Virus record (IMG/VR): IMGVR_UViG_3300006931_000005 | Span: 1 to 64,000 of that record | DNA length: 64,000 bases | Direction: 5' to 3' (one strand) | From: a virus | Part shown: one piece after another, positions 10,727 to 28,033 of the stretch | How positions within the stretch are numbered: the stretch's first letter is position 1 | Layout: each line of letters opens with the position of its first letter | Notes under the pieces: generated by a model | Seen by the model: the letters and a program-made list of their open reading frames with translations, nothing else | Databases searched by the model: none | Told to the model about the DNA's origin: nothing | Position numbers and translations under genes: made by a program

Positions 10727-10941
10727 GCCTGACCCGCGACCTCATTGCAAAAAAGCCTTGGGACTTTGCCGCCGAAGAAAAAAAGCACGCCGGGTGGATC
10801 ACCATCGCGCAGCGTGTCGTCAATGGTGATTACAGCAAGGCGGACGGCTCAACCCGGACAAGCCTCACCATCGGTCTCCGTGGATACCCTGATGACATTT
10901 GCCAACGTGCCGTGGAAATTCTGAAAAAATATGAACGCTAA
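10723..10941 (+). CDS. Small unknown protein (72 aa)
   Basis: Coupled to the exonuclease by an ATGA overlap and overlapping the next gene by 11 nt. The product MSLTRDLIAKKPWDFAAEEKKHAGW... is soluble and moderately basic with a helical C-terminus (DDICQRAVEILKKYER). No motif recognised. Its place in the replication operon is the only clue. Confidence 0.55.
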   Translation: MSLTRDLIAKKPWDFAAEEKKHAGWITIAQRVVNGDYSKADGSTRTSLTIGLRGYPDDICQRAVEILKKYER

Positions 10942-11233: not shown

Positions 11234-11763
11234 TTAGCTTGTTGCAAACCATCCAGAATTATGTTGCAACGAAACTGAACTTGTATAATCTGGATGTCAT
11301 GCACTCAACTGTTAAAAAAGATAAAAGGTGGAAGCATGGATTTGCTGTTAAAAAGCAGATCGCTCCAGAGTATAGTTGCTGGGCTACAATGGTTCAGCGT
11401 TGCACAAATAAAAAATCAAAGGATTATAAATACTACGGAGGGCGCGGCATCAGGGTTTGCAATCGCTGGCGAAATTCATTCGTAAACTTTTTAAAAGACA
11501 TCGGCAAAAGACCGTCCAAAAAACACTCTCTGGAGCGGAAAGATAATGACGGTCACTATACGCCATCAAACTGCCGCTGGGCAACAAAAGCAGAGCAATC
11601 AAGCAATCGTCGAGATAACAGGATTTTAACTTACAAAGGCCAGTCAAAAACGATTACGGAATGGGCGCGGTTGACTGGCTCAAAATTTATGATTATTTCA
11701 AGGCGCATAGCAAGGGGGTGGAGCGTTGAAGATGCCCTGACCGAACCAATACAACAGCGATGA
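11230..11763 (+). CDS. HNH-type homing-endonuclease-like protein (177 aa)
   Basis: The central part has the pattern [41 protein letters not shown], then SLERKDNDGHYTPSNCRWAT and a final SSNRRDN. This is the phage HNH family in which 'RGI.VC.RW', 'L.R.DNDG.Y.P.NCRW.T' and 'NRR' are conserved. A C-terminal DNA-recognition-type segment (YKGQSKTITEWARLTG) follows. The gene is visibly more AT-rich than its neighbours and is joined by ATGA overlaps at both ends, suggesting recent acquisition. The start could instead be the internal Met at residue 24. A relative sits at 59362. Confidence 0.75.
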   Translation: MISLLQTIQNYVATKLNLYNLDVMHSTVKKDKRWKHGFAVKKQIAPEYSCWATMVQRCTNKKSKDYKYYGGRGIRVCNRWRNSFVNFLKDIGKRPSKKHSLERKDNDGHYTPSNCRWATKAEQSSNRRDNRILTYKGQSKTITEWARLTGSKFMIISRRIARGWSVEDALTEPIQQR

Positions 11764-12422
11764 GCGTCGAGAATCTAAAAAAAGTTTTCGTGCAGGCGAA
11801 CGCCAGCGACATGGCTGACGGCAAGCGGTCGTACCAGCGGTACAACCAGTTGATGCGCCTGATGGGTGAGCAGAACGGATACGATCACACGATTGCCGCC
11901 GCAGTGTTCTGCGCCCTGTCTCCGAACAATGATTTCAACGGCAACCTGCGGGATGCCCGCAACCTCCTGAAAAATCACCGGGCCGGGCGCGGCATTGACG
12001 ATTTCAAGGTCTCGACTTACGGCAACAACAAGCGCAAGGCGTGGGCCATCGTAAACGGCGCTGATCCGCTGGAGTTAATCAAGGCTCCGAAAACGCGCAG
12101 CTTTTTTCTGAACGTCTGCGATCCGACCGACCACAAGCCGGTCACGGTGGACGGCCACATTTACAACTGCTGGAACGGAAAGCGGATGAATCTGATCGGA
12201 CTCCGCACGCTTGGAAATTACGACGAGGTGGCCGAGGGCGTGCGCGAGCTGGCGCGGGAGGAGAACATGGTGCCGTGCGAAATGCAGGGCATCCTCTGGT
12301 TCACATGGAAGCGCATCCACGGAATTTTGAGCACGCCGCAGATGTCGTTCTGGCACGACGACATGATCCTCGCCGGAATCGGATTTCACCGCACTGAACA
12401 ATTAACCGCCGCTGTCGCATGA
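11760..12422 (+). CDS. DUF7178-like phage protein, possible HhH-GPD-type fold (220 aa)
   Basis: The sequence has HTIAAAVFCALSPNNDFNGN then LRDARNLLKNH, followed by a region NNKRKAWAIVNGADPLELI, KAPKTRSFFLNVCDPTDHKP and VTVDGHIYNCW. I recall this pattern from a widespread phage family of unknown function (DUF7178-like). The order 'PKT..F..N ... VTVDGH' resembles the helix-hairpin-helix and catalytic Asp region of DNA glycosylases ('PKTA.....P.VDTHV'), so a base-excision-like or DNA-binding role is possible. That is inference. Coupled to both neighbours. Confidence 0.6.
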   Translation: MSVENLKKVFVQANASDMADGKRSYQRYNQLMRLMGEQNGYDHTIAAAVFCALSPNNDFNGNLRDARNLLKNHRAGRGIDDFKVSTYGNNKRKAWAIVNGADPLELIKAPKTRSFFLNVCDPTDHKPVTVDGHIYNCWNGKRMNLIGLRTLGNYDEVAEGVRELAREENMVPCEMQGILWFTWKRIHGILSTPQMSFWHDDMILAGIGFHRTEQLTAAVA

Positions 12423-12970
12423 GAAAAATTTTTGAAACCAGAATGTACTGGCCGCGCATCCCGCTCGCGCCGGTTGCCCACAAGATTTGCATTTACGAAA
12501 ACCTTGTGGCGTTCAGGACTGAAAAAGAGATGGGAACGTACCACGAGAAAAAGTGCTCATCCTGCCCCATCTACCGGAAGTGGAAATGCCCGGTCTGCAA
12601 CGGCTATCATTTTCTGGCCAAGGAGATGCCGGGTGCCGGTGGATCATCGGGCACGCAGCGGGAAAATACCATCAAGCTTCCGCGTGCCGAATGGGAGTTT
12701 AAAATCAAGCCGCAGGAGCCCGGTACGCAGTTCAATGTGATGGTGTTCACCGAGCAGGATCGGGCTAGATTTGGCAAAGATGCCTCCGAAGAAGTTGTGC
12801 GCCGACTTGAAGGATACGGCGTAAAGATTGAGTGGAACAAAGGTCTGCCGATCACGGACGAGCGCGCCACACTGATGTTCGCCACAACTCCGATTCATTA
12901 CCGGCGCAACGAGGCCGGTGACATGATGTACGGCTGGCACGAAAAAGTGGCCGATTTGCAGCCGGTGTGA
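12419..12970 (+). CDS. Zinc-binding phage protein (183 aa)
   Basis: The N-terminal part has KKCSSCPIYRKWKCPVCNGYHF with two CxxC pairs, followed by a flexible Gly/Ser patch and a C-terminal domain (FNVMVFTEQDRARFGKDAS ... GVKIEWNKGLPITDERAT) that is not recognisable. The start overlaps the upstream stop by 4 nt. It is the last gene before the morphogenesis promoter at 12985. Function unknown. Confidence 0.6.
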   Translation: MRKIFETRMYWPRIPLAPVAHKICIYENLVAFRTEKEMGTYHEKKCSSCPIYRKWKCPVCNGYHFLAKEMPGAGGSSGTQRENTIKLPRAEWEFKIKPQEPGTQFNVMVFTEQDRARFGKDASEEVVRRLEGYGVKIEWNKGLPITDERATLMFATTPIHYRRNEAGDMMYGWHEKVADLQPV

Positions 12971-12984
12971 AATCTTGAAATCAG

Positions 12985-13013
12985 TTGACCTCACGGGTTT
13001 TGGGTGCTAAGAC
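12985..13013 (+). promoter_or_regulatory. Leaderless-type promoter of the internal-virion-protein operon
   Basis: TTGACC (12985-12990), a 17-nt spacer, TAAGAC (13008-13013), then 6 nt to the ATG at 13020. It stands exactly at the boundary between the replication and virion modules. No Shine-Dalgarno precedes the ATG (AGCACT), consistent with leaderless initiation. It would drive 14 kb including the giant gene. Confidence 0.6.
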
Positions 13014-13019
13014 AGCACT

Positions 13020-13238
13020 ATGGCAGCAACGGATAAAGATCGTTTGGCCCGGCGTTCGGACATCAGCGGCGTCCAGCCAGTGCCGGAGATCAAGTTTCCG
13101 AAGCTTCCGGCGAGGATAGTTCAGATTGATCCAGAGGGTTGCAAGCAGTACCAGCAGCAGCTCGATCAGGTTTTTAACGACTGGATTCAAAAGCTGAACA
13201 ATGTAACAGCCGGGCTTGCAGGCCAAATAAAACCGTGA
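13020..13238 (+). CDS. Small virion-module protein (72 aa)
   Basis: MAATDKDRLARRSDISGVQP begins 6 nt after the -10 of the upstream promoter. The second half (CKQYQQQLDQVFNDWIQKLN) is a likely amphipathic helix or coiled coil. Its stop overlaps the next start. It is probably a minor internal virion or assembly protein given its place at the head of that operon. No family recognised. Confidence 0.6.
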   Translation: MAATDKDRLARRSDISGVQPVPEIKFPKLPARIVQIDPEGCKQYQQQLDQVFNDWIQKLNNVTAGLAGQIKP

Positions 13239-15376
13239 AACTTTACTCTGCACTCGATACCCCGGCGCTCAATGGGACTACCCAGACACCGATCCGGGAT
13301 TTGACCGGGAGGATCACCGGATATTCAACCAATGGCACCGGCATCTCGACGCCGCTCTATGGCGCATCTCCAGTTAAACCGACCCGCGCCAAGCCACAGC
13401 AAAATTCCGAGGGCAAGTGGATCGACACGAGCACGGGTATGCCGTATCACGGAACGTACACCGACGAGTCGGGCCGCACGCAGTATTACTCGAACGGCCA
13501 ACAGGTGAGCAACGCGGCGGATGTCGGCATCCAGCAGCAGCCTTTCAGCGTTGAGCGCACGCCGAAAAATCCAACGATCAGCGGTGCCATCGACCAGCTC
13601 CAGTCGGAAATCCCGAACACCGGCCTGATGTCGAAGTCGTTCCAGAATTATTTGTCCGAGGCCAGCCGCGTGAACGCCGATGCGAAAGGCCAGCTCGCCA
13701 AAGATCAGGCCGCATACGACACGACCAGCACCGAGAACCGGCTGAACAACGACGTGGCATCGCAGTCGGATGCGCTGCTCGCCAACAACCGGAATTACGA
13801 GCTTGGACAAAATCAGGTTTTGAACGATGTCGGCGCGGCCACCCGGAATTACACGGGCGACCTTACCACCTCGCTCGCCGGGCTGGAAAAAGGCACGGCG
13901 CTCACCGCAGACCAGTTGCGGAAGAACAACGCCGATTATGCAGCGAATCAAAATAATGTTCAGGCGGATGTCGCCAATCAGACCCGTGATTACACGGCTG
14001 GCGAACAGTCGCGCATCAACGATCTCAATCAGCGGGCGGCGACAACCGATGCCAATATGCGTGCGAACAACGCGCAGTATTCCACGCAGCAGCACAATGT
14101 TCAGGGTGAGATCGCCGGACAGAACCAGACCTATTCGACCACGGTGGCTGATCGGCTGAACAAGCTGAAGTCCGATCTCGATACGCAGAACGCGCAGTAC
14201 GAGAAGGCTTCGCAGGCCGTCGCGGATCAGGCGTATGGCGCGGCCCAGAAGCGGAATGATCTTTACCAGTTGACGAGCGGCACGCCGACCTCCGGCAGCG
14301 GCAACCTCGACAACCGGTACATCAAGGCTTATCAGGACATCAACATCCCGCTGCAACAGCAGCTCGCGGATCGCCGCTATCAGCAGGTCAACCAGCTCGA
14401 TGCCGCGCACGCCGGGGCGGACGCGCAGAATTATCAAAACCTGATGTCGCAGTACGCGGGTGAATCCGCGCTCAACTCCGACCTATCCAATCGCGGTATG
14501 TCGCTGGAGCAATACCTTTCCAGTTTGTACGGCCAGAACTACAACGCGAACGAGAACGCGGGCCACAACATTTACGGCGCGAATCTTTCCGTGGACGCCG
14601 GGGCCAGCGCGTTGAATTCCGATCTGGCAAACCGCTCTACGAGCCTCGACCAGTATCTCCAGAGCCTTGGCACGCAGAACTACGGTGCCGAGACTTCCAC
14701 TGCCGGTGCTGTGAACAACGCCCGGCTCGGCCTTGCCAGCACGACGGCTGGAATGAATACGGATTTTGCGAACCGCAACGCGGACACTACGAAGTATCTG
14801 GCCACGACCGACGCGCAAACTGCATCGCAGATTCAGGCGCTCCGGGTGCAGACCGCAGGAATGTCCCGCGCTGCCGCCGCCAGCTATCTCCAGCAGCTCG
14901 CCGTGCCGACGCAGATGGCGCAGCAGGTCTTGGGCAACGACATCGCCAACCAGAGCGCAGTGCAAGGTCTCGACGAGCGGGCGAACGCCTACACGTTCAA
15001 CACGCCCTACGACGCTTCCCGCGTTCCGGCTTCGCCCGGATTTTCTGCGGTCGCACCGCGCAGCTACACGGCCACCTCCGGCGTGAACAACGGCCCGGTG
15101 TCCGGGAATTTGAACAGCCTGCCTTCGGGCTACACCGATACCGCAAGCAGCGGTCAGGTTGGAGCCGCTGGCGCAAATGGCTGGGTGCAGGGATCGGATG
15201 GAAATTATTATGTGCCCGATGCCACGCAGAAAACCGGCTACCGGCTGGTTTGGCAGAAGCCCGCGACTTTGGGTGGCCCTTACAATGGTAACACCTACAA
15301 CGTCGGTGGCCGCACCTACAACTACGGTGAACCTGACAGCGGCAGCGGTGTCATTGATTACGGAGTACGCGCATGA
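13235..15376 (+). CDS. Asn/Gln-rich repetitive internal virion protein (713 aa)
   Basis: The protein is rich in Asn, Gln, Ala, Ser and Tyr and nearly free of Cys. From about residue 180 to 330 it has at least three degenerate 45-48-residue repeats of the form 'NN..Y...Q..V...[IV].....Y......'. From about 405 to 530 it has a second set around 'ALNSDL.NR..SL.QYL.SL..QNY'. The C-terminus is Gly/Tyr-rich. Such long helical, low-complexity proteins before a giant virion protein are typical of ejected internal virion proteins of podoviruses (T7 gp14/gp15-like by position, not by sequence). The role is inferred from context. Confidence 0.6.
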   Translation: MKLYSALDTPALNGTTQTPIRDLTGRITGYSTNGTGISTPLYGASPVKPTRAKPQQNSEGKWIDTSTGMPYHGTYTDESGRTQYYSNGQQVSNAADVGIQQQPFSVERTPKNPTISGAIDQLQSEIPNTGLMSKSFQNYLSEASRVNADAKGQLAKDQAAYDTTSTENRLNNDVASQSDALLANNRNYELGQNQVLNDVGAATRNYTGDLTTSLAGLEKGTALTADQLRKNNADYAANQNNVQADVANQTRDYTAGEQSRINDLNQRAATTDANMRANNAQYSTQQHNVQGEIAGQNQTYSTTVADRLNKLKSDLDTQNAQYEKASQAVADQAYGAAQKRNDLYQLTSGTPTSGSGNLDNRYIKAYQDINIPLQQQLADRRYQQVNQLDAAHAGADAQNYQNLMSQYAGESALNSDLSNRGMSLEQYLSSLYGQNYNANENAGHNIYGANLSVDAGASALNSDLANRSTSLDQYLQSLGTQNYGAETSTAGAVNNARLGLASTTAGMNTDFANRNADTTKYLATTDAQTASQIQALRVQTAGMSRAAAASYLQQLAVPTQMAQQVLGNDIANQSAVQGLDERANAYTFNTPYDASRVPASPGFSAVAPRSYTATSGVNNGPVSGNLNSLPSGYTDTASSGQVGAAGANGWVQGSDGNYYVPDATQKTGYRLVWQKPATLGGPYNGNTYNVGGRTYNYGEPDSGSGVIDYGVRA

Positions 15377-16464
15377 TTCTCTACGCATCATCTCCTGATG
15401 GGGTCGCCCAGCAGCAGAATTACTACGACCAGCTCCGAATGAACGCGGAGCAGAACAATGCCGCACGCTTCGACGCGGCACAGGCCCGTGCGCTTCAGGC
15501 CACCCTTCAGCAACGTGAATCCGACCGGCGCTCGCAGGATGCCGCCGATACCTCCGCAGAGCAAGCTGACCAGTTCAACCAGCGTCTTGCCTTCGAGGGT
15601 CAGCAAGGTGATCTGAACCGCGCTTCACACGAGAAGGACGTGAACACGCAGTACAGCTCGACGCACGCCGACCGGCAGGATGCGATCAATCAGCGCGATT
15701 TCGAGCAGGCTCAAAAGCTGGCCATGGCTGGTCAGATTCCGCAGACCGAGGAGAAGGTTGCCTCGCTGTATCCGAATTTCAGCAAAGACCAGATCAAAGT
15801 TTTGGCGGCGGCAAGCTCGCAGCACGCCTTCGACCGTTTCGGCACCGCTCTCGATATGTCGATCCGCGCCGGTAATCCGTTGCCGCTTGAAGCCGTCTCC
15901 AAGATCGTCAACCCGGACTCTCCGATGTACAAGGACGCGATTGATTTTCGCACCGAAAAACTCGCGCCGTTCGTCCAGCAGTTCAAGACCGGTGAGGACA
16001 AGGCCCGCAAGGGAAATTTAGCAGCAAAGATTCAGGCTGATACCGAGGCTGCACCGCTTCCGACTTCATTGAGCGCCAATACCCCTATGTGGGCTGGCGG
16101 TTATGCAAATCCTATCAACTGGGGTATTCGGCTCGGCGAGCATTTGTTCCCGGATATTACCCCAGATAATACAATCCAGCCTCGTGGCGACTGGCAGACG
16201 CGGGCTCCGTCGATTGTTTCATCGCTCCGCGCTGGGAATGATCCGGCTGTAACCACAGACGTTACAACTGGAAAATTTGTGAACACGATGCTCAATCCGA
16301 ACGGTGGCCCGCAAGCACCGGAGCCGATTGTTCCGCCGATCCAGCCCGGCCCGGTCGCTCCTGTCCCCGGCGTTCCGACGGTCACAACTCAAGCCCAATT
16401 TGATGCGCTGCCCAGCGGTGCCATTTACATTGGAAAAAACGGTAAGCAATTTCGCAAGCCATGA
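15373..16464 (+). CDS. Putative internal virion protein (363 aa)
   Basis: The first 130 residues are charged, Gln/Ala/Arg-rich and probably coiled coil (QARALQATLQQRESDRRSQDA). A middle helical part (KVASLYPNFSKDQIKVLAAASS) follows. The C-terminal part is Pro-rich (APEPIVPPIQPGPVAPVPGVP), ending with a short AQFDALPSGAIYIGKNGKQF module reminiscent of head-protein tails. It is coupled by 4-nt overlaps to both the repetitive protein and the giant protein. A core or ejection-protein role is inferred. Confidence 0.55.
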   Translation: MILYASSPDGVAQQQNYYDQLRMNAEQNNAARFDAAQARALQATLQQRESDRRSQDAADTSAEQADQFNQRLAFEGQQGDLNRASHEKDVNTQYSSTHADRQDAINQRDFEQAQKLAMAGQIPQTEEKVASLYPNFSKDQIKVLAAASSQHAFDRFGTALDMSIRAGNPLPLEAVSKIVNPDSPMYKDAIDFRTEKLAPFVQQFKTGEDKARKGNLAAKIQADTEAAPLPTSLSANTPMWAGGYANPINWGIRLGEHLFPDITPDNTIQPRGDWQTRAPSIVSSLRAGNDPAVTTDVTTGKFVNTMLNPNGGPQAPEPIVPPIQPGPVAPVPGVPTVTTQAQFDALPSGAIYIGKNGKQFRKP

Positions 16465-19400
16465 AGCAAGATGATTTTGGCGGCATCGCATTGGACGATC
16501 CACAATCATCTGACGAATTTGGTGGTGTACCGTTGGCACCTTCCACATCGACAGATGAATTCGGTGGGGCACCTTTAACTTCACCGGCTCCGATTCAAGT
16601 CCCGGCGCAGAGCCAGCCGATGCCGGAGCCGATTCCATTCAAAAACCCGGACATCATCGCGCCCGCGCCGGAAGCGCCGTCGATCCCCGGCGTCTTGGCC
16701 CGCAGCGCGGCCAGAAATGTTCTGCCGACCGCAGGATTTATTGCGGCTGCGCCAGTCGGTCGCTTGGCCGGTGCTGCTGCTGGTGCCCGCACTGGCGCTC
16801 TGCTTGGAGCTCTGGTGCCCGGTCTTGGTGAAACTGGCGTCAGTGAGGGCGTTGGCGCAGTGATTGGTGGCCTTATCGGTATGTTCGCCACTGGAACAGC
16901 GGCGGCAACTGCAACGAAAGCACTTCAGACTGGCGCTGCCGATTACGTCGCACCAGATTCTTTCCTTGGAACGAAGTCGGAGCAGGCGGATATGGCGGCA
17001 CATCCCATCGCCAGTGAGCTGGGAAGCCTTGCCGTCATCGGAAAACCGAATCCGTTCAACATCATCCGGGCTGCACGCACCATCGGGTCGGATACCGGAC
17101 GCGCAGCACTCGCCGATCTGTTGAAAACTGGCGCGACCAAGGGCGGCTATCAGGAATGGGCCAAGACTTACTCGCCAGAGGTGCAAAAATCTGCTGTCAA
17201 CGTGCTCAACGTCGCGCAGGCGGGCGGCATCAACGCGGCTTTCAATGTGTACGACCAGATCAAATCTGGAAATTACAGCGCGGGCGACCTTTTACGGTCG
17301 GCGGCGGAGGGCGCTTTGTTCAATGAGCCTTGGATTCACGCAAAAAATCCTGCGACCGACTCGTTTGATTCCGCACTGACACCCGAACAGGCCACGGAAG
17401 CGAATAAAAACCTCCGGGCGTTGAGCCCGTACCCGGAAACCGGGACGCCGACGAACATCTCGAAGGGGATCGTGGCCGTTCCGGTCGGTCAGCGGACGCA
17501 TATCATCCAAGTGAACGGTCAGGACGCCGCCGTTTTGAAGCACGTCGATGGCGCGGACTTTCAGAAGGCGCAGGACGATGCTGGCGCGTCCGGGTGGGAC
17601 GGATATTTTCTTAAAAAAGACCCGGAGAGCGGCAATCCGACGATCTACATCAACATGGATCACCTGAACCGTCAGGATTCCCTGTTCACGCACGAGTCAA
17701 CGCATTTGCTGGAGGCCATGGGGCTCATCAACCAGCAGCAGATGGACGCCGTGAACACGACCTACGGCCAGATCAAGGTCAAGGACGCCGACGGAAATGA
17801 ATTGCCCATCGCTCAAGAGGTGGCGAACCGTTACGCGAAATTTAATCAGGACAACAGCCGACCGGATCAGACGCCGGAAGATTTTCAGCGCGAACTTTTC
17901 GCCAACATCCTGCAACACTGGCATGAAACCGGGACTGCGCCGAAAGACACCTTCATCAAGCGGGCGATTGATTTCATTTCCGGCATTGCCGGGCTCGATA
18001 AATCGGGCGAACAGCACGCGAGAGACTATATCGCTGGCCGTTTTGAGAAGGCACCTGAAGAAGCCGGAGCTCCGGCGACCGCCGATCTTGTTCCGGCTGG
18101 CGCAGCGAGCGCGGCTCCTTTGCCAAATTTGGCATTTGACAAAAATCCTGTTCCGTCGCAGGCTACGGGTGATGTCAGACAAGCCGAAGAACGAGCAGGA
18201 GCCGGAGTACCACCGCCCGCCGAAGGGGTGGAAGCCGGGAGGCCCGCCGTTGGTGCTCCGCCCGCCCGCCCCGGTGCCGAGCCCAACGCCGCCGTCCAGC
18301 AAGCCGCCAATGCCTACAACGAAGCCGTAGGTCTCGGCCCAACGCAGCCGCATTACGTCCCGGTGGACGAGGCCCGTGCCCGCCAGATCGCCGCCGAGTA
18401 CGAGAAGCTTCCGAAAACCGACCAGTCTCCGCAGACCCTTGCGTCCTACGAACAGCTTGGCAAGGAAATCCAGCAGCAGTGGGATTATGCCCGGAACAAA
18501 ATGGGCATCACGTTCGAGGCTTGGACGAAAGAGGGCCAGCCCTACGCGAATTCCCGCGAGATGGTGAAGGATGTCCGGGACAATCATCACCTTTATTTTT
18601 TCACAGGCGGCGATGAGCATCCGCTGCTCAACGTCAAGGACGCTGACGGGCTCACGCTCAATGACAAGCTCCGGGCTGTCCATGACCTGTTCGGTCATGC
18701 GGCGGAAGATTTTCAATTCGGCGCACGCGGCGAGGAAAATGCGTGGATCAAGCACAGCCAGATGTTCACTCCCCTCGCGCAGAAGGCGCTGACGACCGAG
18801 ACCCGTGGCCAAAACTCGTGGGTGAATTACGGGCCGCACAATTACGAGGCGACCGGTGCCCGGAGAAACATCAAGCCGCAGGATCGTCCGTTTGCGGATC
18901 AAAAAGTTGCCCTGCTCCCTGACTGGGTGCATGATTGGAAAGGCCCGTTAAATGAAAACCAAAAAGCACAGTTCAGCGTCCCGAAACAAGCGCCCGATTT
19001 CACCGACCTCCAGTGGTGGAAGCGTGACAAATCCGAACCGGATGCAGGCGCTCGTGAATCTGGCGCTCCAAGAACTATCGCAGGTAATCCCCGCGAGCTC
19101 GCCCCCGGCGAACGCGACGGCAAAGTAACACTCACGCACTGGTCGAACTTCGACCTTCACGGAAAGGCGATTGATCCGAATTTTTACGGCTCCGGTTATG
19201 CCGGTGAGGAAAAAGGCCGTCGGGTTTTCAAAAAGTCTTGGCTGAACCGCAGCTATTTTGGAATGAAGGGCTACGTCAAAGAAGGTGGCCTTGGCCGATT
19301 CAAGCACAGCGTCACGGTGGACGTGAACAAGCTCTACGACCTGAAGAATGATCCCGACCGGCTGGGTGAAAAAGTCGGCGCGATCTCCGACCGGCTGTAT

Positions 19401-22400
19401 CCGAAGGGTGGCACGCAAGCCGATCTCACCGTTTACGAAAATCTCATCAAGAAGGCCGGGTACATCGGATACTACAACACCGATTATGCGGTGGCCGCGC
19501 TGTTCGACAAGGTGCGCGTCCCGGCCCGCGTTTCAATCATTCACTCGGTTGAAAATTTCAAGCCCGCCACACACAAGGACATGACGCCGGAGGAGCTGCT
19601 GACATCGGCGCAACAGGTGCGGATCAAGGCTCCTTCCGGGACTACCGCATTGCGTGTGATCGACTCGAACGGCAACACCGTGATTCATAACCTGTCGAAA
19701 TTCTCGACCAGAAATCCGCTGTTCAACAAGGATGTGGTGCGTGTCAGCCCGGTATCGGTGAAAACCAGTGGCGTGTACAAGAACCATCCGATCCCAGTGA
19801 AAGGGCCAGTGCGCGTCGAGCCGACGGCGATGTTTTCGGTGCCGAAGAAAAAAGAATTTTTAGATGCGGGCGAGGAATCTCGCAATCCAAGACCTAATGC
19901 TACGACATTGCCGACTCCACCGACAGGGGGGCTTAAAGAAATCGGAGATCGTACCGCATCTAAGTTTAATTACGATAAAAACGTGCTGGATGAAAATGGC
20001 GCGATGAAGCGATTTTATCACGGAACAGGAAAATCGGATCAATTAGTAAAATCTGGAGGATTTAGCTATGAAAAAGCCAGCGACGAATCACTGTATGGAA
20101 AAGGATTATATTTCACTGAAAATCCTGAAATTGCTGGAGGAACAGTCGTAGGCGCTGATTTGGTAAAACGCGGATATGCTGGCAGCTCTGGTGCTGTCAT
20201 TCCGGTCAACATCAATGCCAAAAATCTTTTTGATGATTCGGTCGGTATTCCGAAGCAGCAAGCCGAAAAGCTGGTGCTAAAATATATTGATAAAAACGGT
20301 GAAAACGATGTCCAGCTTAACGGCAAGTATGGATCATTCGCCGCCGCAAAACCGGTAATTAAAGCGCGTGAATCAATAGATAATTCGTTTCGAGAATTGA
20401 TTGATGATTTGGCGCAAGAAAAATCAATTCGGGATTTAGTTAAAAAATATGTTCCAGCCGGAAGTTTATCTGGAAGCCAGACCATAAAAGATCGTTTGAG
20501 CTGGGCTTTTGGTCGGCGCAGTATCCATAACTCAATCGCGTCTGAACAGGATAAGTCGGCTGGTGGAATACGGGCTGAATCAACAGGTGATATTAAGCAA
20601 AAAATTTACCAACTCGATGATCTTGAAAAGCAAAGCAATGCTCTTGATCGTCAAATTTCAGAGGCGATGGGGCAGGTTGGTAAGTATTCTGACTTTGTAA
20701 AAAAAGTAATTGAAAATGTTGATGGCCCTGTGAAATACGGCGATCTTACAGATATTTTTTTACAGGACAAAAACGAGGTCAATAATTTTTTAAGAAATTC
20801 TGGATACGATGGGATTACTCATATTGGAGGAACTATCACAGGTAGCGATCCACATCGCGTTGTAATTGTTTTCGATCCGAAGCAGATTCGCTTTGCGATT
20901 GGCGCAGATCAGCCTTTCTTTTCAGTTCCAAAAAATTCATCTCAAGAGCTGAAAAAATTTCCGCGCACAGCCATCGACATTCTGATGGACGAATCGGTAA
21001 TCAATCCGGTGCGTCCGAAGCAGGTTGCCGAATTCGATCTCATGGGCGATGACGAGGCCGCAGGATCGACCAGCTTCTCCCGCGTGTTCGCGGTTGCCGA
21101 CCACCTTTCCCGCCGATCCGCGCAGCTTGGCGGTGGAGCCCTGCACGAGCTCAACGACACAAACGCCGAGACGCTGGCAAACACTGTGGCGAACGAGGCG
21201 GAGTACGCGATCAACCGCGATCCGAAGGCGATTGGCTGGTACGACCGCGAAATGAAGGCGGCGATGGGCCAGATTTTTAACCGGCACCCGGAGCTGAAGA
21301 AAGATCGCGGCCTGCAATCCGTTTTCAAATCCATTCTGGCGATCACCAACAACGGCCAGAATGTTTTTGCGAATTTCGCGCAGGCGGACAAGCTTTACAC
21401 GGATTGGCGCACGGCGGGCAAGGTGCCGGACGAGGAGAACTGGGGCGGCAAGAGTAAGGGCGCGATCAACGACGGCCTGAAGATGCTCAACCTGCTCATC
21501 GAGAAGCTGGGCACCGCGAATCTGGAAAAGTTTTTGGCCAAGGAATTCAAGGTTGGCGATCTCAAGAGGGCTGGATTCGACATCAGTTCTGAAAACACCG
21601 AGCACATGGCGCACGGCTCGCTGATCTACGGCCCGAAGGTCGGCGGCGGATTCTATCAAAACCTGATCGGCAACCTGAATCCGATCACGATGGATATGTG
21701 GCTCATGCGGACGATCAACCGTATGCGCGGCACGCTCACCGAGCCCAGCCTCACGGCGCTCCCGGATCAGATCGACCGGTTCATCAAGTCGATGAAGAAG
21801 CAGCCGGACAGCGAGGCGATTATCGCGGATGCCAAGCGCGTGAAGCAGCAGATTTTGGACGGCACGCTCGACGTGAACAAGGAGAAGGATGCTCCGGGTG
21901 TGATGCTGACCGCCGCCAAGAATTTGTACGACGATTACCGCAACAGCGGGTTCGTAAAGCGGACGGAGCTCAACCGCAGCTCGAAGCTGATCGCCGAGGA
22001 ATTTTTCGGCATCAACGAAGCGCCGACTTCGGCGTCCGAGCGTGATTTCATCCGCAATGTTTTCGTCCGGGCGCAGGAGAAGTTGAAAGCGAAAAAAATC
22101 GACATCACGAACGCCGACCTGCAAGCCGTTCTGTGGTATCTTGAGAAGGATATTTATGGAAAACTTGGAGCAACCGACCGCCGATCCGCGCCCGCCAGCT
22201 ACTCGGACGCCGCCGCAGCCCTCAACCGAAAACAGCTCGGACTTTTCGATGAAGAACAAGGACGATCAGGCGATCTTCGAGGAGCTGAATCCGCTGGCCC
22301 GGAGATCAATCGCTTCGGTGAAGCTGGCAAGCAGCTTACTGGCGCACAGGCGCTCAAGCGGGTCTCCGTCCAAGAAGCGGAGCCTGTACCGCAGTTCTCG

Positions 22401-25400
22401 GTGACGAAGAAGCTGAAGTTTTACGAAGGCAAACGCTTCGGTGACGTGAAGGACGAGGTGGTGCCGGAAGTTCCGCCGTTTCATCCGCTCGGCGTCGAAC
22501 AATTCAAGCAGGCCCGCGACAGCATCGTGAACCTCGCGCACACGACCGGCGCGATCCAAGCGCGTGGTATGCGGATCAACTTCGCCAACCCTGATCCGGT
22601 CACGGCCAAGCGCCTTGGCGTTGACCAGAACAGCATGGTGGCCCGCGCCATCCACGCGATCTCAAATTCCGACCGGCGCACGGCGAACGAAAACAAGGTG
22701 CTGCTCGCCGACAACATTTTGAACACGGTGAAGCAGGCTGATTTCGTCACCAAGATTCAACGTGATTCAACGGACGGTGATAATGTCGGCCAGTACGGTA
22801 CGGCATTCATCAAGGCTTACGATATTGACGGCAAGAAGGTCTGGCACCTTGTCCAAGTGGACGGCAATGGTGATTTTATCACGCAATTTTCTTGGCCGGA
22901 TACGGAAGCTGAAAATGGACGGGTGATGCGGTCGCAGATTGTGCAGGTTGGTCAGCGGGTTGGTGGTTTGCTAGAGTCGAAGGTTAATCCGCAGGCCGAA
23001 GCCCCGACGCCTTCTAATTTCGCTCCGCCAACCGCTGACCAAGGTGAGATTGCCACATCTGGCAAAGAGGCGCAACCTCAATTTTCAGTAGCCAAGGAGG
23101 AGAAGCGGGCGCAGGTCGGCGGCATCCCTGAAGTCGGTCAGGTGCGCGATACCGAATCCATTTCCGACAACCAAGCGCACATCCGCGAGCGCCTGTTCGA
23201 CGGCACGCAGCCTGTTTCTGACGAGAACACATCCGCCGCGTGGCAGGTATTCGACGAGATGACGGGCAACAACCGCTCCCAGATCGCCGGGCAGTTGAAA
23301 GACGCCTTTGGCGGATCGCGGCTGCTCCTTGGCCTATATAAAGGCGAGGTCTGGAAGTACGCCCGCAAGCTGGCGGTCAACGGTGACGATTCGCTGCTGC
23401 GGGCGATGTACGATCACAGCGAACAGTTTGAGACCCTTGCCGGTGGTGGCGCATCAACCGCTGGCTCCGCGCTCCGGGCCGAGGCCGAGAATGCAAACGA
23501 TCCGGTCAACCGGGCACTCCAGTCCGCCTACGAGACCGAGCGCGAAAATGCGGCCCAGTCCGCCTCCGGCATCGACCGCGAGACCTTCACCGGACTGCTC
23601 AAGCGCCTGCGTAGCCTGAAGCTGACGCCGGACGAGGTTGAGAAGGTGGTCAAGGAGGGCAAGCTGCCGGACGGCAAAACCCTCGAAGAAGCTTTGGACG
23701 AGCTTACGCCGGAATCGAAGGAGGCCATGGCGTTGCTCGACAAGTATCAGCGTTCGCAGACGGAATGGCTGAAGCCGGACGTGAAGAAGTCGATCATCCG
23801 CGTGATCGTGGACGCCGCCATCGGCGAGAACAAGCTGGCGCGTTACGACGAGAAGGATTTTCAGGATCGGTTGTCCACCCGGCTGCAAGAAGCCACGGTG
23901 CCGAAGGAAGTCGCCGACCAGCTCGCGTTCGAGGTGTGGAAAGACAAGGCTGCACGCGAGGCCACCAAGACCGACAAGGCTGTCAAGGCGGATGCCGCGT
24001 TCGAGCAGAACCGGGCGCAGGCCATTCTCGACAAATTGCAATCTGACCAGACCGAAGTGTTCAGTCAGGCCCGGCGCTCGAAGGTTGCTGACATCGTTAA
24101 GGCGTTTTACAAAAACCCTGCGGCGTCCGAAGAAGTGCGAGCCCAGCAGATCGCGCAGCTCGAAAAAGATTTGGTTAATGAGACCGTGAAACCCGCAACG
24201 GCCAAGGAGCTGGCGCGGGAAGCTGGCCAGCGCAAGCTGGTGCTCGAAGCAAACGACCGGCTGGCGCAGGAGAAGGTCACGGCCAACGAAGCGCAGCAGA
24301 CCGCTGAACGCGAGCTCGCAAAATTCGAGGAGAAAAACTCCGGTGTCGAATGGCTGAAGGAAAAAGGCAAACGCGATCAGGTGCTTCAGGCGATTGCCGA
24401 TGCGCTGAAGTCGAAGTCGCCGATCCTCGATGATCCGACACCGCTGGTGAACGAGACCAAGGCGAAGCTCACTGCGCTCGGCGTAGATGAGGCCACGGCG
24501 GGCAAGCTGGCTTTCGAGATCGAGACCGTCCGGCGCACGCAGTTCGCCAACAGCCGCGTGAAGGCGATGGAAAATGCCGCCAAATCTAAAAGCCTGCGGT
24601 CGCTCATCGAATCTATCCTCGAAACCCCGTACCGCGCCCAGTCCGACCCGAAATGGCTGCATGAAACTGCTGTCCGCTGGTTCGAGTCGAACGGTCTCGG
24701 CAAGGATCAGGCTGAAGCCGCCGCCCGGCTGTTCGACAAGGAGTTTAAAGAGGCGTTGGCGCAGGCCAGCACCAAGGTTGCCGAGGCTGAACTGAAGAAA
24801 AAAGTATCGCCCCGCACTTACGATGATCTGGAGCGGTTGATCCGGGCCGGAATTTTCGACCCGGACAAAAACTGGATCGACCAGCTCGCGGCGAAGAACG
24901 GCTGGAAGAAGCCATCGCGTGACCAGATGCTCAAATTGCAGGAATTGGAGCACAAGCTTTCCGATCCTGAATTGTCACCCGAAGAAGTGCGCGACATCCA
25001 AGAGCAGCAGATGCACGTCCTGCGTCACGTCGGCAAAAAAAGGGGCCAGACCCTCCGGGCGCTCGGCGAATCGTTCACTGCCTCGCTGCTGTCCGGCATC
25101 CGCACGCTTACCGTGCAGACCTCGCCGACGGTCATGGCCCTCCGCGATCTGCCGATCATGGCGCTGTCCGATCCGAAGAACGCGATGAATTTTGCGAAGG
25201 CGATGTACAACTCCTTCAAGGCAAATGCGGTCGCGGCGTTCAAATTCGCGTGGATGAAGGACGCCTACGGTTTTCACTTGAGCGAGCTGGAGCACGGCTT
25301 CAACGAGATGAAGCGCATCTCCGAGGAGACGGATCAGGTGGTCAACTCAAAGACCTCGACGCCGGTTGCCAAGGCGCTCGCGTACACCAAGAAGCTCTAC

Positions 25401-27239
25401 GCGCTCCAGCGTTTTGTTTTCCGCAACCTGAATTCCATCGACCAAGCTTCGATGGCTGTCACCCGCGAATGGAAGCTGGCGTATTATTCCGCTTCTGCGT
25501 TCAAAGAAGCCGGGCTGACGAACACGGACATTTCGCAGTTGATCGACCACATCGAGATGCTGCGTAAAAACGAATTCGAGAAAGCCATCGACGCCGGGCT
25601 GGATGCGAACACGGCCAAGGTGCGGGCCAACAGCCGGGTCGCGGATTCCGTCTGGGATTTCGTGAATAACAAGACCGGTCGCAGCGATCTTGCGGATCAG
25701 GTTATCAAGGCTACCGAGAACGACGTGTACTCCACCGTCGGTCGTGTGCCGCACGGCTTGAATTCAACGGATGAAGGCTTCCTGACCCGGTTCTCCGGCT
25801 TTAATCATTTCCTGCAATTCGTGTCCAAGGTTCGCGGCGAAGGCGGGCTCCAGAACATCGGCACCACGGCGCTGATCGGCATGATTAACATTCCATTCCG
25901 CACGACCCGTTATTTTTCTGACTTCTCGCCCTACGGCCTGCTGCGCTACGGTATCTACAAGTACCGGCTGAATCGCGGCAAGGAAAACTTCTGGAAACAG
26001 ACGTATGGCAACGCGCTTCAGGCTCGCGCCCGGCTGTACTCCGCGCTCGCGGGCACCGTTGCCATGGCCGCAGCGACCGCATGGGCGCTCAAGAGCAACA
26101 CGGCGGACGACAAGGCTGGTGACGAGGACTTCGGCCTGTACATCACCGGCAAGGGGCCGAACAACAAGGTGCTGGCCGATGCGTGGGTCAAGCGTGGATT
26201 CAAGCAGTATTCGGCAAACTTTGTTTTCGGTGGCCACATCGTTGCGATTCCGCTGACCCGTGCGGGCGAAGCCCTGATGATGCCCTTCATCCTGCCCGCC
26301 GCGCTCGATGACTATGCGTGGAAATCGAAAGAGGCGGAAGCGGGCGGTCATCCGATCAAGACTCCGATTTCATCCGCCACTGCATCACTGATCGGCGAGG
26401 CAATGTACATGACCGGCCAGTCAGGTATCCTCCAGACTTTTGGCCAGCTCCAGCAGGCGACTGAAAACGGCGGCAGCTTGGGCAAGGCGGCGGTCAAGGT
26501 CGGTGTGAGCGCGGCATCATCGACGGTGTTACCCTTCCGCCAGCTCCTCGCGTCCGTGAGCGAAATGCTTTTCGGAAGCATGGATAATTCAAGCATCAGC
26601 TCGCTGATCGCAAACCAGTTTCCAATCGTGGGCCTGCCGTTTCAGAATCCGGCTGTCAACCGCTTTGGTGATCCGATGTACGACCGTAGCTGGTACGGTC
26701 TGATCGCCCGCACTGGCGTTCCCATCGCTTTTCAGATTTCGCGTTCGCCGGAAAATGAGCGGTTGTACACGACGCTCGTGGAAAAAGGAATTTCGCCACC
26801 GCCGCTGAATCGCTCCGATCTTGAATCGAAGTACGGCGACATGACCGATCAGCAGTTCAAGCAGTTTGCTACCGTTTCAGGTCAGGCGTTGAAGCAGGCA
26901 ATCACAAAGAATCTTCCCGACCTTCAGGGCATGAGCTCGGTGGACGCGAAGAACCTGATGTTCAAGCTGGCGATGCAGGCGAACGCTCAAGCGGCCATGG
27001 CCATTGGCGTGGCTCCGCAGCCCGCAGCCGGTCAGACTGCCGCCGCAGGGTCGGCTGGTGCCGCGCCGTCGAAACAGAAAAAGGCGAAGCTTTCCAAGGC
27101 GTCTAAATCAGTCCGGTCGCTTTACAAGCTGCCGAAGATGAGCCTGTCTCCGGTCGGTAAGAAATCTCACAAATCGACCACGGCCCGGCGCGGTGGATCG
27201 CTCTACGGCGTGCAGCCACGCCACCTCTACGGCACCTGA
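16461..27239 (+). CDS. Giant multidomain virion (polyvalent-type) protein, 3592 aa
   Basis: A single open frame of 10.8 kb. Segments in order: acidic head (FGGI/FGGV repeats, residues 5-35); Gly/Ala membrane-inserting zipper (about 85-155); a zincin-like HESTH motif (411-415); a 'DLFGHAAEDF' domain (about 660-830); ADP-ribosyltransferase-like modules near 890-1050 (LTHWSNFDL) and 1184-1485 (FYHGTGKS...GKGLYFTENP); a large helical domain around 1500-1900 (GPKVGGGFYQNLIGNLNPIT); long helical or coiled regions (2230-2850); and a C-terminal domain (about 2870-3500) resembling the LPD38-type end of polyvalent phage proteins. It ends in a basic tail. FSVxK motifs mark the linkers. I see no N4-type RNA polymerase motifs. 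It is probably ejected into the host with the DNA. Confidence 0.8.
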   Translation: MKQDDFGGIALDDPQSSDEFGGVPLAPSTSTDEFGGAPLTSPAPIQVPAQSQPMPEPIPFKNPDIIAPAPEAPSIPGVLARSAARNVLPTAGFIAAAPVGRLAGAAAGARTGALLGALVPGLGETGVSEGVGAVIGGLIGMFATGTAAATATKALQTGAADYVAPDSFLGTKSEQADMAAHPIASELGSLAVIGKPNPFNIIRAARTIGSDTGRAALADLLKTGATKGGYQEWAKTYSPEVQKSAVNVLNVAQAGGINAAFNVYDQIKSGNYSAGDLLRSAAEGALFNEPWIHAKNPATDSFDSALTPEQATEANKNLRALSPYPETGTPTNISKGIVAVPVGQRTHIIQVNGQDAAVLKHVDGADFQKAQDDAGASGWDGYFLKKDPESGNPTIYINMDHLNRQDSLFTHESTHLLEAMGLINQQQMDAVNTTYGQIKVKDADGNELPIAQEVANRYAKFNQDNSRPDQTPEDFQRELFANILQHWHETGTAPKDTFIKRAIDFISGIAGLDKSGEQHARDYIAGRFEKAPEEAGAPATADLVPAGAASAAPLPNLAFDKNPVPSQATGDVRQAEERAGAGVPPPAEGVEAGRPAVGAPPARPGAEPNAAVQQAANAYNEAVGLGPTQPHYVPVDEARARQIAAEYEKLPKTDQSPQTLASYEQLGKEIQQQWDYARNKMGITFEAWTKEGQPYANSREMVKDVRDNHHLYFFTGGDEHPLLNVKDADGLTLNDKLRAVHDLFGHAAEDFQFGARGEENAWIKHSQMFTPLAQKALTTETRGQNSWVNYGPHNYEATGARRNIKPQDRPFADQKVALLPDWVHDWKGPLNENQKAQFSVPKQAPDFTDLQWWKRDKSEPDAGARESGAPRTIAGNPRELAPGERDGKVTLTHWSNFDLHGKAIDPNFYGSGYAGEEKGRRVFKKSWLNRSYFGMKGYVKEGGLGRFKHSVTVDVNKLYDLKNDPDRLGEKVGAISDRLYPKGGTQADLTVYENLIKKAGYIGYYNTDYAVAALFDKVRVPARVSIIHSVENFKPATHKDMTPEELLTSAQQVRIKAPSGTTALRVIDSNGNTVIHNLSKFSTRNPLFNKDVVRVSPVSVKTSGVYKNHPIPVKGPVRVEPTAMFSVPKKKEFLDAGEESRNPRPNATTLPTPPTGGLKEIGDRTASKFNYDKNVLDENGAMKRFYHGTGKSDQLVKSGGFSYEKASDESLYGKGLYFTENPEIAGGTVVGADLVKRGYAGSSGAVIPVNINAKNLFDDSVGIPKQQAEKLVLKYIDKNGENDVQLNGKYGSFAAAKPVIKARESIDNSFRELIDDLAQEKSIRDLVKKYVPAGSLSGSQTIKDRLSWAFGRRSIHNSIASEQDKSAGGIRAESTGDIKQKIYQLDDLEKQSNALDRQISEAMGQVGKYSDFVKKVIENVDGPVKYGDLTDIFLQDKNEVNNFLRNSGYDGITHIGGTITGSDPHRVVIVFDPKQIRFAIGADQPFFSVPKNSSQELKKFPRTAIDILMDESVINPVRPKQVAEFDLMGDDEAAGSTSFSRVFAVADHLSRRSAQLGGGALHELNDTNAETLANTVANEAEYAINRDPKAIGWYDREMKAAMGQIFNRHPELKKDRGLQSVFKSILAITNNGQNVFANFAQADKLYTDWRTAGKVPDEENWGGKSKGAINDGLKMLNLLIEKLGTANLEKFLAKEFKVGDLKRAGFDISSENTEHMAHGSLIYGPKVGGGFYQNLIGNLNPITMDMWLMRTINRMRGTLTEPSLTALPDQIDRFIKSMKKQPDSEAIIADAKRVKQQILDGTLDVNKEKDAPGVMLTAAKNLYDDYRNSGFVKRTELNRSSKLIAEEFFGINEAPTSASERDFIRNVFVRAQEKLKAKKIDITNADLQAVLWYLEKDIYGKLGATDRRSAPASYSDAAAALNRKQLGLFDEEQGRSGDLRGAESAGPEINRFGEAGKQLTGAQALKRVSVQEAEPVPQFSVTKKLKFYEGKRFGDVKDEVVPEVPPFHPLGVEQFKQARDSIVNLAHTTGAIQARGMRINFANPDPVTAKRLGVDQNSMVARAIHAISNSDRRTANENKVLLADNILNTVKQADFVTKIQRDSTDGDNVGQYGTAFIKAYDIDGKKVWHLVQVDGNGDFITQFSWPDTEAENGRVMRSQIVQVGQRVGGLLESKVNPQAEAPTPSNFAPPTADQGEIATSGKEAQPQFSVAKEEKRAQVGGIPEVGQVRDTESISDNQAHIRERLFDGTQPVSDENTSAAWQVFDEMTGNNRSQIAGQLKDAFGGSRLLLGLYKGEVWKYARKLAVNGDDSLLRAMYDHSEQFETLAGGGASTAGSALRAEAENANDPVNRALQSAYETERENAAQSASGIDRETFTGLLKRLRSLKLTPDEVEKVVKEGKLPDGKTLEEALDELTPESKEAMALLDKYQRSQTEWLKPDVKKSIIRVIVDAAIGENKLARYDEKDFQDRLSTRLQEATVPKEVADQLAFEVWKDKAAREATKTDKAVKADAAFEQNRAQAILDKLQSDQTEVFSQARRSKVADIVKAFYKNPAASEEVRAQQIAQLEKDLVNETVKPATAKELAREAGQRKLVLEANDRLAQEKVTANEAQQTAERELAKFEEKNSGVEWLKEKGKRDQVLQAIADALKSKSPILDDPTPLVNETKAKLTALGVDEATAGKLAFEIETVRRTQFANSRVKAMENAAKSKSLRSLIESILETPYRAQSDPKWLHETAVRWFESNGLGKDQAEAAARLFDKEFKEALAQASTKVAEAELKKKVSPRTYDDLERLIRAGIFDPDKNWIDQLAAKNGWKKPSRDQMLKLQELEHKLSDPELSPEEVRDIQEQQMHVLRHVGKKRGQTLRALGESFTASLLSGIRTLTVQTSPTVMALRDLPIMALSDPKNAMNFAKAMYNSFKANAVAAFKFAWMKDAYGFHLSELEHGFNEMKRISEETDQVVNSKTSTPVAKALAYTKKLYALQRFVFRNLNSIDQASMAVTREWKLAYYSASAFKEAGLTNTDISQLIDHIEMLRKNEFEKAIDAGLDANTAKVRANSRVADSVWDFVNNKTGRSDLADQVIKATENDVYSTVGRVPHGLNSTDEGFLTRFSGFNHFLQFVSKVRGEGGLQNIGTTALIGMINIPFRTTRYFSDFSPYGLLRYGIYKYRLNRGKENFWKQTYGNALQARARLYSALAGTVAMAAATAWALKSNTADDKAGDEDFGLYITGKGPNNKVLADAWVKRGFKQYSANFVFGGHIVAIPLTRAGEALMMPFILPAALDDYAWKSKEAEAGGHPIKTPISSATASLIGEAMYMTGQSGILQTFGQLQQATENGGSLGKAAVKVGVSAASSTVLPFRQLLASVSEMLFGSMDNSSISSLIANQFPIVGLPFQNPAVNRFGDPMYDRSWYGLIARTGVPIAFQISRSPENERLYTTLVEKGISPPPLNRSDLESKYGDMTDQQFKQFATVSGQALKQAITKNLPDLQGMSSVDAKNLMFKLAMQANAQAAMAIGVAPQPAAGQTAAAGSAGAAPSKQKKAKLSKASKSVRSLYKLPKMSLSPVGKKSHKSTTARRGGSLYGVQPRHLYGT
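18136..18164 (+). promoter_or_regulatory. Internal TTGACA element 36 nt before a nested ATG
   Basis: Inside the giant gene, TTGACA (18136-18141), 17 nt and CAGGCT (18159-18164) precede an out-of-frame ATG at 18172. The 36-nt distance equals that of the promoter at 5396, and the weak -10 resembles CAGGGT at 4622. It abuts a perfect 14-bp palindrome, TGCCAAATTTGGCA (18121-18134). It may be coincidence, but the geometry repeats that of the operon promoters. Confidence 0.3.
18172..18330 (+). CDS. Nested out-of-frame ORF in a giant-protein linker (52 aa)
   Basis: Frame +1 relative to the giant gene. The product MSDKPKNEQEPEYHRPPKGW, followed by a Pro-rich tail (PPAPVPSPTPPSSKPP), has natural-looking composition for a small phage protein. 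In the giant frame the same DNA encodes an Ala/Pro/Gly linker. The ORF ends where the next giant-protein domain (HYVPVDEARARQIAAEY) begins. It may be an overlapping gene, a fossil of a former intergenic gene, or chance. Confidence 0.3.
   Translation: MSDKPKNEQEPEYHRPPKGWKPGGPPLVLRPPAPVPSPTPPSSKPPMPTTKP
18952..19128 (+). CDS. Nested out-of-frame ORF in a second linker (58 aa)
   Basis: Again frame +1. The ATG at 18952 has GGAAAGG 8 nt upstream, a good Shine-Dalgarno. The product starts MKTKKHSSASRNKRPISP and has a helical middle (RMQALVNLALQELSQVI). It spans exactly the linker between the 'DLFGHAAEDF' domain and the first ADP-ribosyltransferase-like module, including the first FSVPK motif. Translation is unproven. 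Confidence 0.3.
   Translation: MKTKKHSSASRNKRPISPTSSGGSVTNPNRMQALVNLALQELSQVIPASSPPANATAK
22156..22404 (+). CDS. Nested out-of-frame ORF in a third linker (82 aa)
   Basis: Frame +1. AAGGA sits 5 nt before the ATG, an optimal Shine-Dalgarno. The product MENLEQPTADPRPPATRTPP continues with an acidic, plausible segment (KDDQAIFEELNPL) and a Ser/Arg-rich end that looks more like a shadow frame. It fills the linker between the helical domain ending near residue 1900 and the FSVTK motif at 1979-1983. Confidence 0.3.
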   Translation: MENLEQPTADPRPPATRTPPQPSTENSSDFSMKNKDDQAIFEELNPLARRSIASVKLASSLLAHRRSSGSPSKKRSLYRSSR

Positions 27240-27357: not shown

Positions 27358-27431
27358 GCGGAAGTAGCTCAATGGTAGAGCCGCCGTTTTCCAAACGGCA
27401 CACGAGAGTTCGATTCTCTCTTTCCGCTCCA
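27358..27431 (+). tRNA. tRNA-Gly (anticodon TCC)
   Basis: A complete 74-nt cloverleaf: acceptor GCGGAAG/TTTCCGC with one G-U pair, D arm GCTC-AATGGTA-GAGC, anticodon arm GCCGT-TTTCCAA-ACGGC with T33 and anticodon TCC, a 4-nt variable loop, T arm GAGAG-TTCGATT-CTCTC, discriminator T and an encoded CCA. It reads GGA and GGG codons, which may help translate AT-richer or rare-codon genes. It is the only convincing tRNA in the window. Confidence 0.93.
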
Positions 27432-27619
27432 ATTACCGAGTGCCGGAATCAGATTCCGTCAGCCTAGTTGCATGGGCGCATTGCATCCGCAGCGGTGGGC
27501 GAATTCCACCGCACGATTTGCAGAGCGGTGGGTGCGGAGTACGGCTCGTAGCTGGATACTACGGATGCGGCCAACCAGTCCGAGTGGAAAAGCCAGCACG
27601 CACCTGCCACCAATTTGAA
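27432..27619 (+). other. Non-coding stretch with tRNA-like stems
   Basis: Downstream of the tRNA lie the palindrome GGAATC-A-GATTCC (27445-27457) and a 7-bp hairpin GCGGTGG/CCACCGC (27492-27512). An 86-nt segment (27527-27612) follows with a 10-bp terminal stem, GGTGGGTGCG against CGCACCTGCC with two wobbles, and a 3' ACCA. Inside it, CGTAG-CTGGATA-CTACG mimics an anticodon arm with GGA (Ser). No T arm is found, so it is at most a degenerate tRNA or tRNA-like structure. A GTG-started frame runs through it but looks unnatural. Confidence 0.4.
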
Positions 27620-28033
27620 ATGGAAAAAAAACGACTAATTTTTAACTCGCCGACGAATGACGAGCTTAAAGTGCTGAAGCACTTTTTGCCGAAGATCAAG
27701 GCGCAAGCCGAGTCCGAGGCGTCAACTGATGTCAAAGCCAAGCGCGGTGCTCTAGTTCAAAAATTCTGCGGCATCTGCGGCGAGAGCCTGATCGACAAGC
27801 AGAAGCGAAGTCCGAATCCAAAATTGTGCAAAGAGTGCGATGAATTTTTAACCGCTGGCCAGACCGCTCTTGTCACGATGGATGGGCGCTATGCGTTTGT
27901 ACAATCTGACGGCTCCGAGGAGGCAAAGGCGATAGCTGGAAAAATCATTCCGGTTGAATCCAAGCTGCTGGATGAAATGGCGCAGAAACAAGGCATCGAA
28001 ATCAAAGAGAATCCCAATGTCAAAAACAACTGA
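27620..28033 (+). CDS. Zinc-ribbon protein (137 aa)
   Basis: The start at 27620 (MEKKRLIFNSPTNDELKVLK) is preferred over an upstream GTG at 27440 whose extension crosses the RNA-like stems. A zinc ribbon FCGICGESLIDKQKRSPNP then KLCKECDEFL supplies two CxxC pairs near residues 50-75. The N-terminal part is helical and Lys-rich and the C-terminus is acidic. There is no Shine-Dalgarno. It overlaps the next gene by 17 nt. Probably a small regulatory or virion-associated protein; unknown family. Confidence 0.55.
   Translation: MEKKRLIFNSPTNDELKVLKHFLPKIKAQAESEASTDVKAKRGALVQKFCGICGESLIDKQKRSPNPKLCKECDEFLTAGQTALVTMDGRYAFVQSDGSEEAKAIAGKIIPVESKLLDEMAQKQGIEIKENPNVKNN

Follow-up and report, generated by a model that had tools for sequence, protein, structure and literature searches.

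Phage genes hidden in another frame of a longer host gene, which reads through them, are already known. In the ShiLan-type arrangement (PMC11855218), genes for homing HNH endonucleases of 195 amino acids (aa) are inserted out of frame in phage methylase genes, and leaderless initiation has been proposed for them. Here, we examine a related arrangement in a virus record of 73.7 kb (IMG/VR record IMGVR_UViG_3300006931_000005), of which positions 1 to 64,000 (hereafter the window, 64 kb) were analysed. A giant gene of the window is overlapped by three small open reading frames (ORF1, ORF2 and ORF3), and the original prediction, which read all of them in the +1 frame of that gene, was borne out both for their coordinates and for their common frame. 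We put at about 85% the probability that ORF1 is a real overlapping gene, i.e., that a small protein is overprinted there in the +1 frame.

With the ShiLan HNH genes, the locus shares a phage-borne out-of-frame gene, a host gene that reads through it without stops and a start of its own within the host transcript. It differs in its products, which are about 45–110 aa long and without endonuclease match (no HNH endonuclease appears in the hidden frame, ORF1 to ORF3 having no Pfam or PHROG match and only 52–82 aa), and in its recurrence at several domain junctions, where the small ORFs are tied to neighbouring effector domains. In the Rz/Rz1 pair, a small lysis gene encoding the lipoprotein Rz1 is nested in another frame of a longer phage gene and separately initiated. 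The embedding and the separate initiation are common to both systems, but ORF1 has neither a cysteine nor a lipobox and its host gene is not a spanin gene. The genetic linkage of a small protein to one effector domain, known here from sequence alone, is also reminiscent of toxin–immunity pairs. As for the giant gene itself, it is of the phage polyvalent (multi-effector) kind, i.e., very large and multidomain, with shuffled effector domains; like the polyvalent proteins of phages and conjugative elements described by Iyer et al. 2017 (PMC5512222), it combines many unrelated domains shuffled between phages, including an ART-PolyVal-like domain, and a HExxH motif. The literature searched on the pairing of small overlapping genes with polyvalent-protein genes yielded no description of it, nor were non-endonuclease small genes that recur in polyvalent linkers and are tied to effector domains found in the literature searched.

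Selection on the +1 frame of ORF1

Direct searches for relatives using single proteins of the window, plus a contig scan, were unsuccessful, and relatives of D1, the domain following ORF1 (Table 1), were gathered from IMG/VR (designated below by L numbers). Just upstream of D1, a +1 peptide of the form [YF][HK]RPPKGW[KD]P is conserved in eight phages, the peptide RPPKGW or a near variant being found at the same +1 place in L088, L115, L089, L090, L091, L092 and L093. A further scan for this family (family A) extended it to L230 and L235 without finding a copy that stands alone. Over the same peptide, frame 0 is scrambled among relatives (e.g., PPPAEGVEAGR, ATTPGMGSASG, TPERVGPENR). When all pairs are summed over the ten codons, the differences at +1 positions 1, 2 and 3 amount to 64, 36 and 155, respectively. 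Among L088, L089 and L090, the core window shows 22/12/4 differences by frame-0 position and an aa divergence of 0.69 in frame 0 against 0.27 in +1, and the 45 nucleotides (nt) after it are apparently constrained in both frames; in D1 of the same three phages, change is dominated by frame-0 third positions. Of 221 ten-codon windows, the ORF1 core is the most extreme, frame-0 third positions accounting for 0.14 of its differences vs. a median of 0.59, and its substitutions at +1 third positions, compared with those of D1, give a Fisher p of 3e-11 (three non-overlapping pairs). Altogether, in the test called for by the original prediction, the +1 frame of ORF1 is kept in relatives with suppression at the right codon positions, and the alignments show purifying selection on its +1 codons, the giant protein's own linker being nearly free to drift. 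One might attribute the same conservation to a non-coding RNA or DNA element, given that the stretch is conserved at the DNA level and has a palindrome upstream, but the signature has the period of a codon, with variation at +1 third positions and hardly any at second positions, and we consider this explanation extremely improbable because a structural element would not respect codon positions.

The ATG at 18172 is internal to a longer open +1 frame, which begins with the ATG at 17797 (177 aa). Counted from 18172, the log-likelihood ratio per codon (see below) reaches +0.24, vs. −0.33 from 17797, and this codon usage, together with the homologs, supports 18172 being the true start of ORF1. The 125 open codons upstream of 18172 would in principle allow ribosomes to enter the +1 segment through a programmed frameshift from frame 0, so that the giant protein would end early in a short alternative tail. 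Such a mechanism is nonetheless highly unlikely, as stops interrupt the +1 frame of L090 and L093 shortly before the small ATG, and several relatives have their own Shine-Dalgarno (SD) or promoter at the ATG. Indeed, an AAGGAG SD precedes the small-ORF ATG in L088, L115 and L230, while L093 displays a promoter-like TTGACA-N16-TAACAT-N5-ATG (spacer ACCTT) with a leaderless ATG. This promoter-like element of 54 nt, ending in the leaderless ATG, occurs twice in L093 (9852–9905 and 10650–10703), in the linkers on either side of D1, and its second copy, in the linker after D1, precedes another +1 ORF. In the window, the start signals originally attributed to each ORF were recovered for ORF3 (AAGGA 5 nt before 22156) and ORF2 (AAGG 8 nt before 18952), but the leaderless-type box assigned to ORF1 at 18136 turned out to be a TTGACA hexamer without a −10 to match it, and the promoter scan returned no hit at 18136.

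Ribosomes would then start independently inside the giant mRNA, either on a dedicated SD or, in L093, through an internal promoter and a leaderless ATG, and would deliver a protein of ~45–60 aa alongside the giant protein. The lack of constraint on the frame-0 sequence of a linker would leave room for such an additional gene.

Table 1. Coordinates, in the window, of the giant gene, its domains and motifs, and the small +1 ORFs
Feature	Coordinates	Strand	Remarks
Giant polyvalent-protein gene	16461..27239	+	3592 codons/aa, frame 0; Pfam ART-PolyVal and phrog_3170 matches
HESTH (HExxH) motif	17691..17705	+	candidate embedded metallopeptidase; read from translation
Perfect palindrome TGCCAAATTTGGCA	18121..18134		37 nt upstream of ORF1 ATG
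ORF1	18172..18330	+	52 aa, +1 frame, family A (RPPKGW), linker before D1; real overlapping gene supported
ORF1 core	18208..18237	+	+1 codons YHRPPKGWKP
Domain D1	18279..18932	+	aa 607–824; co-inherited with ORF1
ORF2	18952..19128	+	58 aa, +1 frame, between D1 and D2
Junction motif FSVPK, copy 1	18972..18986	+	aa 838
Domain D2	19104..19530	+	aa 882–1023
Junction motif FSVPK, copy 2	19833..19847	+	aa 1125
ADP-ribosyltransferase-like domain (ART-PolyVal)	19989..20273	+	Pfam match
Junction motif FSVPK, copy 3	20919..20933	+	aa 1487
Domain D3	20964..22250	+	aa 1502–1930
ORF3	22156..22404	+	82 aa, +1 frame, over D3 end and beyond
Junction motif FSVTK, copy 4	22395..22409	+	aa 1979
Junction motif FSVAK, copy 5	23082..23096	+	aa 2208

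Chance expectation, ORF2 and ORF3

The number and length of the small ORFs constitute no evidence in themselves, since the giant gene contains 9 +1 ORFs of at least 50 aa with an ATG for 9.2 expected from synonymous shuffles. At face value, all three might thus be chance open frames in a GC-rich gene: their counts and lengths match synonymous and codon-order shuffles alike, and the stretches of ORF1 and ORF2 remain open in 80–93% of the shuffles. This pure-chance view, first suggested by length statistics, was dropped once the +1 alignment revealed constraint, and we now hold it to be very improbable. The +1-specific constraint over eight phages refutes it for ORF1, the codon usage of all three ORFs is atypical for shadow frames, and junction slots are strongly enriched for coding-like +1 windows.

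Codon usage was evaluated with a log-likelihood model opposing real frames to the +1 shadows of the same phage, the latter averaging −0.82 per codon (95th percentile: −0.18). ORF1, ORF2 and ORF3 score +0.24, +0.01 and +0.12 per codon (shadow P = 0.003, 0.013 and 0.004), and when compared with stretches of similar frame-0 score P becomes 0.000, 0.005 and 0.004, respectively, all these values being approximate because windows overlap. The remaining +1 ORFs of at least 40 aa in the giant gene range from −0.33 to −1.08, with the exception of 16717–16863 (0.02). The claim that the three ORFs exceed chance is therefore sustained by codon usage for all of them and by conservation for ORF1 alone, whereas length and number lend it nothing.

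For ORF2 and ORF3, L093 is the sole relative covering both. In the linker that harbours ORF2 it, too, has a +1 ORF, although the free part of ORF2 is not homologous, and in the region of ORF3 it shows the same ATG, the same AAGGA and an open +1 frame. Over both ORFs, the substitution pattern with respect to this one relative is of the frame-0 type, without +1-specific constraint. Accordingly, we see even odds that ORF1 is real while ORF2 and ORF3 are chance frames, their resemblance to L093 being a by-product of frame-0 conservation. Besides the substitution pattern, the lack of homologs of ORF2 other than L093 and the ATG of ORF3, which is forced by a conserved frame-0 Tyr-Gly, point that way. 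The codon usage of the two ORFs (about 0.005 given similar frame-0 score) and their SDs point the other way, as do the L093 equivalents, which likewise score coding-like, and the position of ORF3 in the slot after D3 that is used by another small-ORF family (family B) in other phages. In summary, the reading of these ORFs as overlapping genes is strongly supported for ORF1 and for related giant genes and is evenly balanced for ORF2 and ORF3, and the idea that each ORF fills a linker between domains fits ORF1 and ORF2 but ORF3 only in part, because its start lies inside the conserved C-terminal end of D3.

Small ORFs and domains in related giant genes

Between L088 and L115, a block of 869 nt that is 97.5% identical extends over both the small ORF and D1, and no similarity was detected in its flanks for several hundred bases on either side. 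The blocks shared by L088–L089, L089–L090 and L088–L090 also start in the small ORF and run through D1, and when mapped on the D1 tree, family A requires 2 changes vs. 6.8 in shuffles. These comparisons show that the small ORF and D1 behave as a single module, both inherited and exchanged as such. D1 itself yields an AlphaFold2 model with a predicted local distance difference test (pLDDT) of 92.5, for which the fold search returned no usable match in the PDB.

The same arrangement, with other small-protein families, is shown by our comparisons to recur beside domains in many related giant genes. Across 235,321 windows of 25 codons from pairs of giant ORFs, 158 (in 41 ORFs) show clearly higher conservation in +1 than in frame 0, for 5 (in 2 ORFs) in the same scan of the +2 frame, a ratio that overstates the difference because of partial redundancy among the pairs and because +1 is the more open of the two frames. 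Coding-like open +1 windows occupy 20/67 slots before D1 and 38/51 slots after D3, compared with 209/6223 bins overall. Family B (about 70 aa, DPIE.AIKRHPxLTxExAEEMA..FGF) immediately follows D3 and often has a conserved AAGGAG, and family C (about 50 aa, PKRENFQxQEEYEEALAFF) lies before D1, while further recurrent small +1 families are found in L088/L115/L230. Mean +1 and frame-0 identities are 0.58/0.42 for family A, 0.41/0.37 for family B and 0.39/0.29 for family C. Families B and C are also present, unannotated, in the isolated Limnohabitans phage DC33 (L003 / PQ492659) and in MW202675. In DC33, the family B ORF lies at 27569–27781 on the − strand, its ATG being at the 27781 end. As a side remark, DC33 is labelled Inoviridae, but this label looks wrong, as its 39-kb genome includes a 9.4-kb relative of the giant gene, and its gene order resembles that of the podovirus-like MW202722.

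Some candidates were set aside during these comparisons. An additional +1 family (“F”) is not claimed as an overlapping gene, its substitutions being of the frame-0 type, and raw tblastn/phmmer E-values of +1/+2 shadows were rejected as evidence because frame-0 conservation alone yields E-values down to 7e-15. Likewise, the structure model of family B (helical, pLDDT 79, predicted template modelling score 0.34) is of modest confidence and was not interpreted.

As an alternative, the original prediction had proposed that separate genes were fused into the giant gene, the small genes that once lay between them being kept as linkers. Several features would suit such an origin: L093 retains the promoter-like 54-nt element and leaderless ATG in two linkers; in L128 (5640–5900), an in-frame TAG, with a small ORF of family C just upstream, cuts D1 off from the giant frame's N-terminal part; and intergenic-type palindromes are found inside the giant gene. 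The fusion is nevertheless not established, and we deem it unlikely, since no clear stand-alone gene of family A, B or C was found, 17/17 matches of family A and 61/62 of family B lie already in +1 inside giant ORFs, and the same data are explained by de novo overprinting on unconstrained linkers.

Concerning function, the likeliest role of the small protein, proposed tentatively from co-inheritance alone, would be that of a cognate partner to the effector domain next to it, which it might inhibit, protecting the phage-producing cell, or help to fold or load. Going further, polyvalent genes could be two-frame cassettes, each combining a frame-0 effector domain with a dedicated small partner in +1 of the adjacent linker, so that effector and partner would always recombine together inside one giant gene; we regard this reading as doubtful. 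Several observations weigh against ORF1 as a gene and against its proposed role. In the window, ORF1 has only an AGG (weak SD) upstream of 18172, L089 and L091 have no nearby ATG, and L094, a close relative in D1, does not have the peptide. Moreover, the conserved core is short (about 10–27 codons) and the N-terminus variable, the +1 excess of the most diverged family B is modest, and no homolog has a known function.

Junction motifs and implications

The giant protein carries the motif FSV[PTA]K five times, every copy lying between domains (Table 1). These copies were rejected as DNA repeats because their synonymous codons differ as at random (12 identical vs. 16.8 expected). Other giant proteins carry repeated junction motifs of their own (QFMPAE, QYSGR, KFSR, ES.HPR, IRRMPE, KTNLKP), and in the flanks after D1, the motif of the protein itself is matched in 9/67 cases, compared with 1.7% for the motifs of other proteins (score 4). 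Pfam domains confirm the junction placement of the motifs in L147 and L179. In the latter, a phage portal protein and a zeta-toxin domain are fused in a single ORF (7307–13243), whose segments are separated by E..HPR motifs. Processing of polyvalent proteins by embedded metallopeptidases was proposed by Iyer et al. 2017 (PMC5512222), and no repeated junction motif turned up when the main text of that paper was searched. The FSV[PTA]K junctions may be candidate processing (cut) sites releasing the domains. In the giant protein, the Pfam search returned no peptidase match, but the HESTH motif is present in the translation.

Among the other features of the giant gene, the ART-PolyVal match (E = 1.5e-6, aa 1177–1271) has 29.4 bits, slightly under the gathering score of 31.2, while phrog_3170 matches aa 607–790 with E = 5e-24; the domains of the giant protein occur singly across many phages. 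The N-terminus (16461–16600) bears three D[ED]FGG(I/V/A)xL repeats, possibly a targeting signal. Long ORFs of the +2 frame are in mild excess in the gene (5 vs. 1.3 expected, P = 0.01) and include 21698–22045, 23765–24046 and 25250–25567. Palindromes TGCCANATNTGGCA lie inside two linkers of the giant gene (18121, 23051) and just after it (27260), and the palindrome TGACAAANNTGTCA is found at 2383 and 4601. When up to 3 mismatches are allowed, the 18121 palindrome has 19 matches vs. 4.7 expected. Directly 3′ of the giant gene lies a tRNA-Gly gene with anticodon TCC (27358–27431).

While linkers in giant genes of phages are usually regarded as mere filler, some of those described here would be a dense second coding space, and the conserved small proteins are unlisted in both annotated records examined (DC33 and MW202675). 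The protein-specific junction motifs, for their part, provide candidate cut sites for the polyvalent-protein processing proposed in 2017. If each small protein does turn out to be the partner of the neighbouring effector, scanning linkers in +1 would find the module and thereby point to an inhibitor or helper for each of many anti-host domains that are still uncharacterised. The way in which a polyvalent gene can swap effectors and yet keep their controls would become apparent as well.

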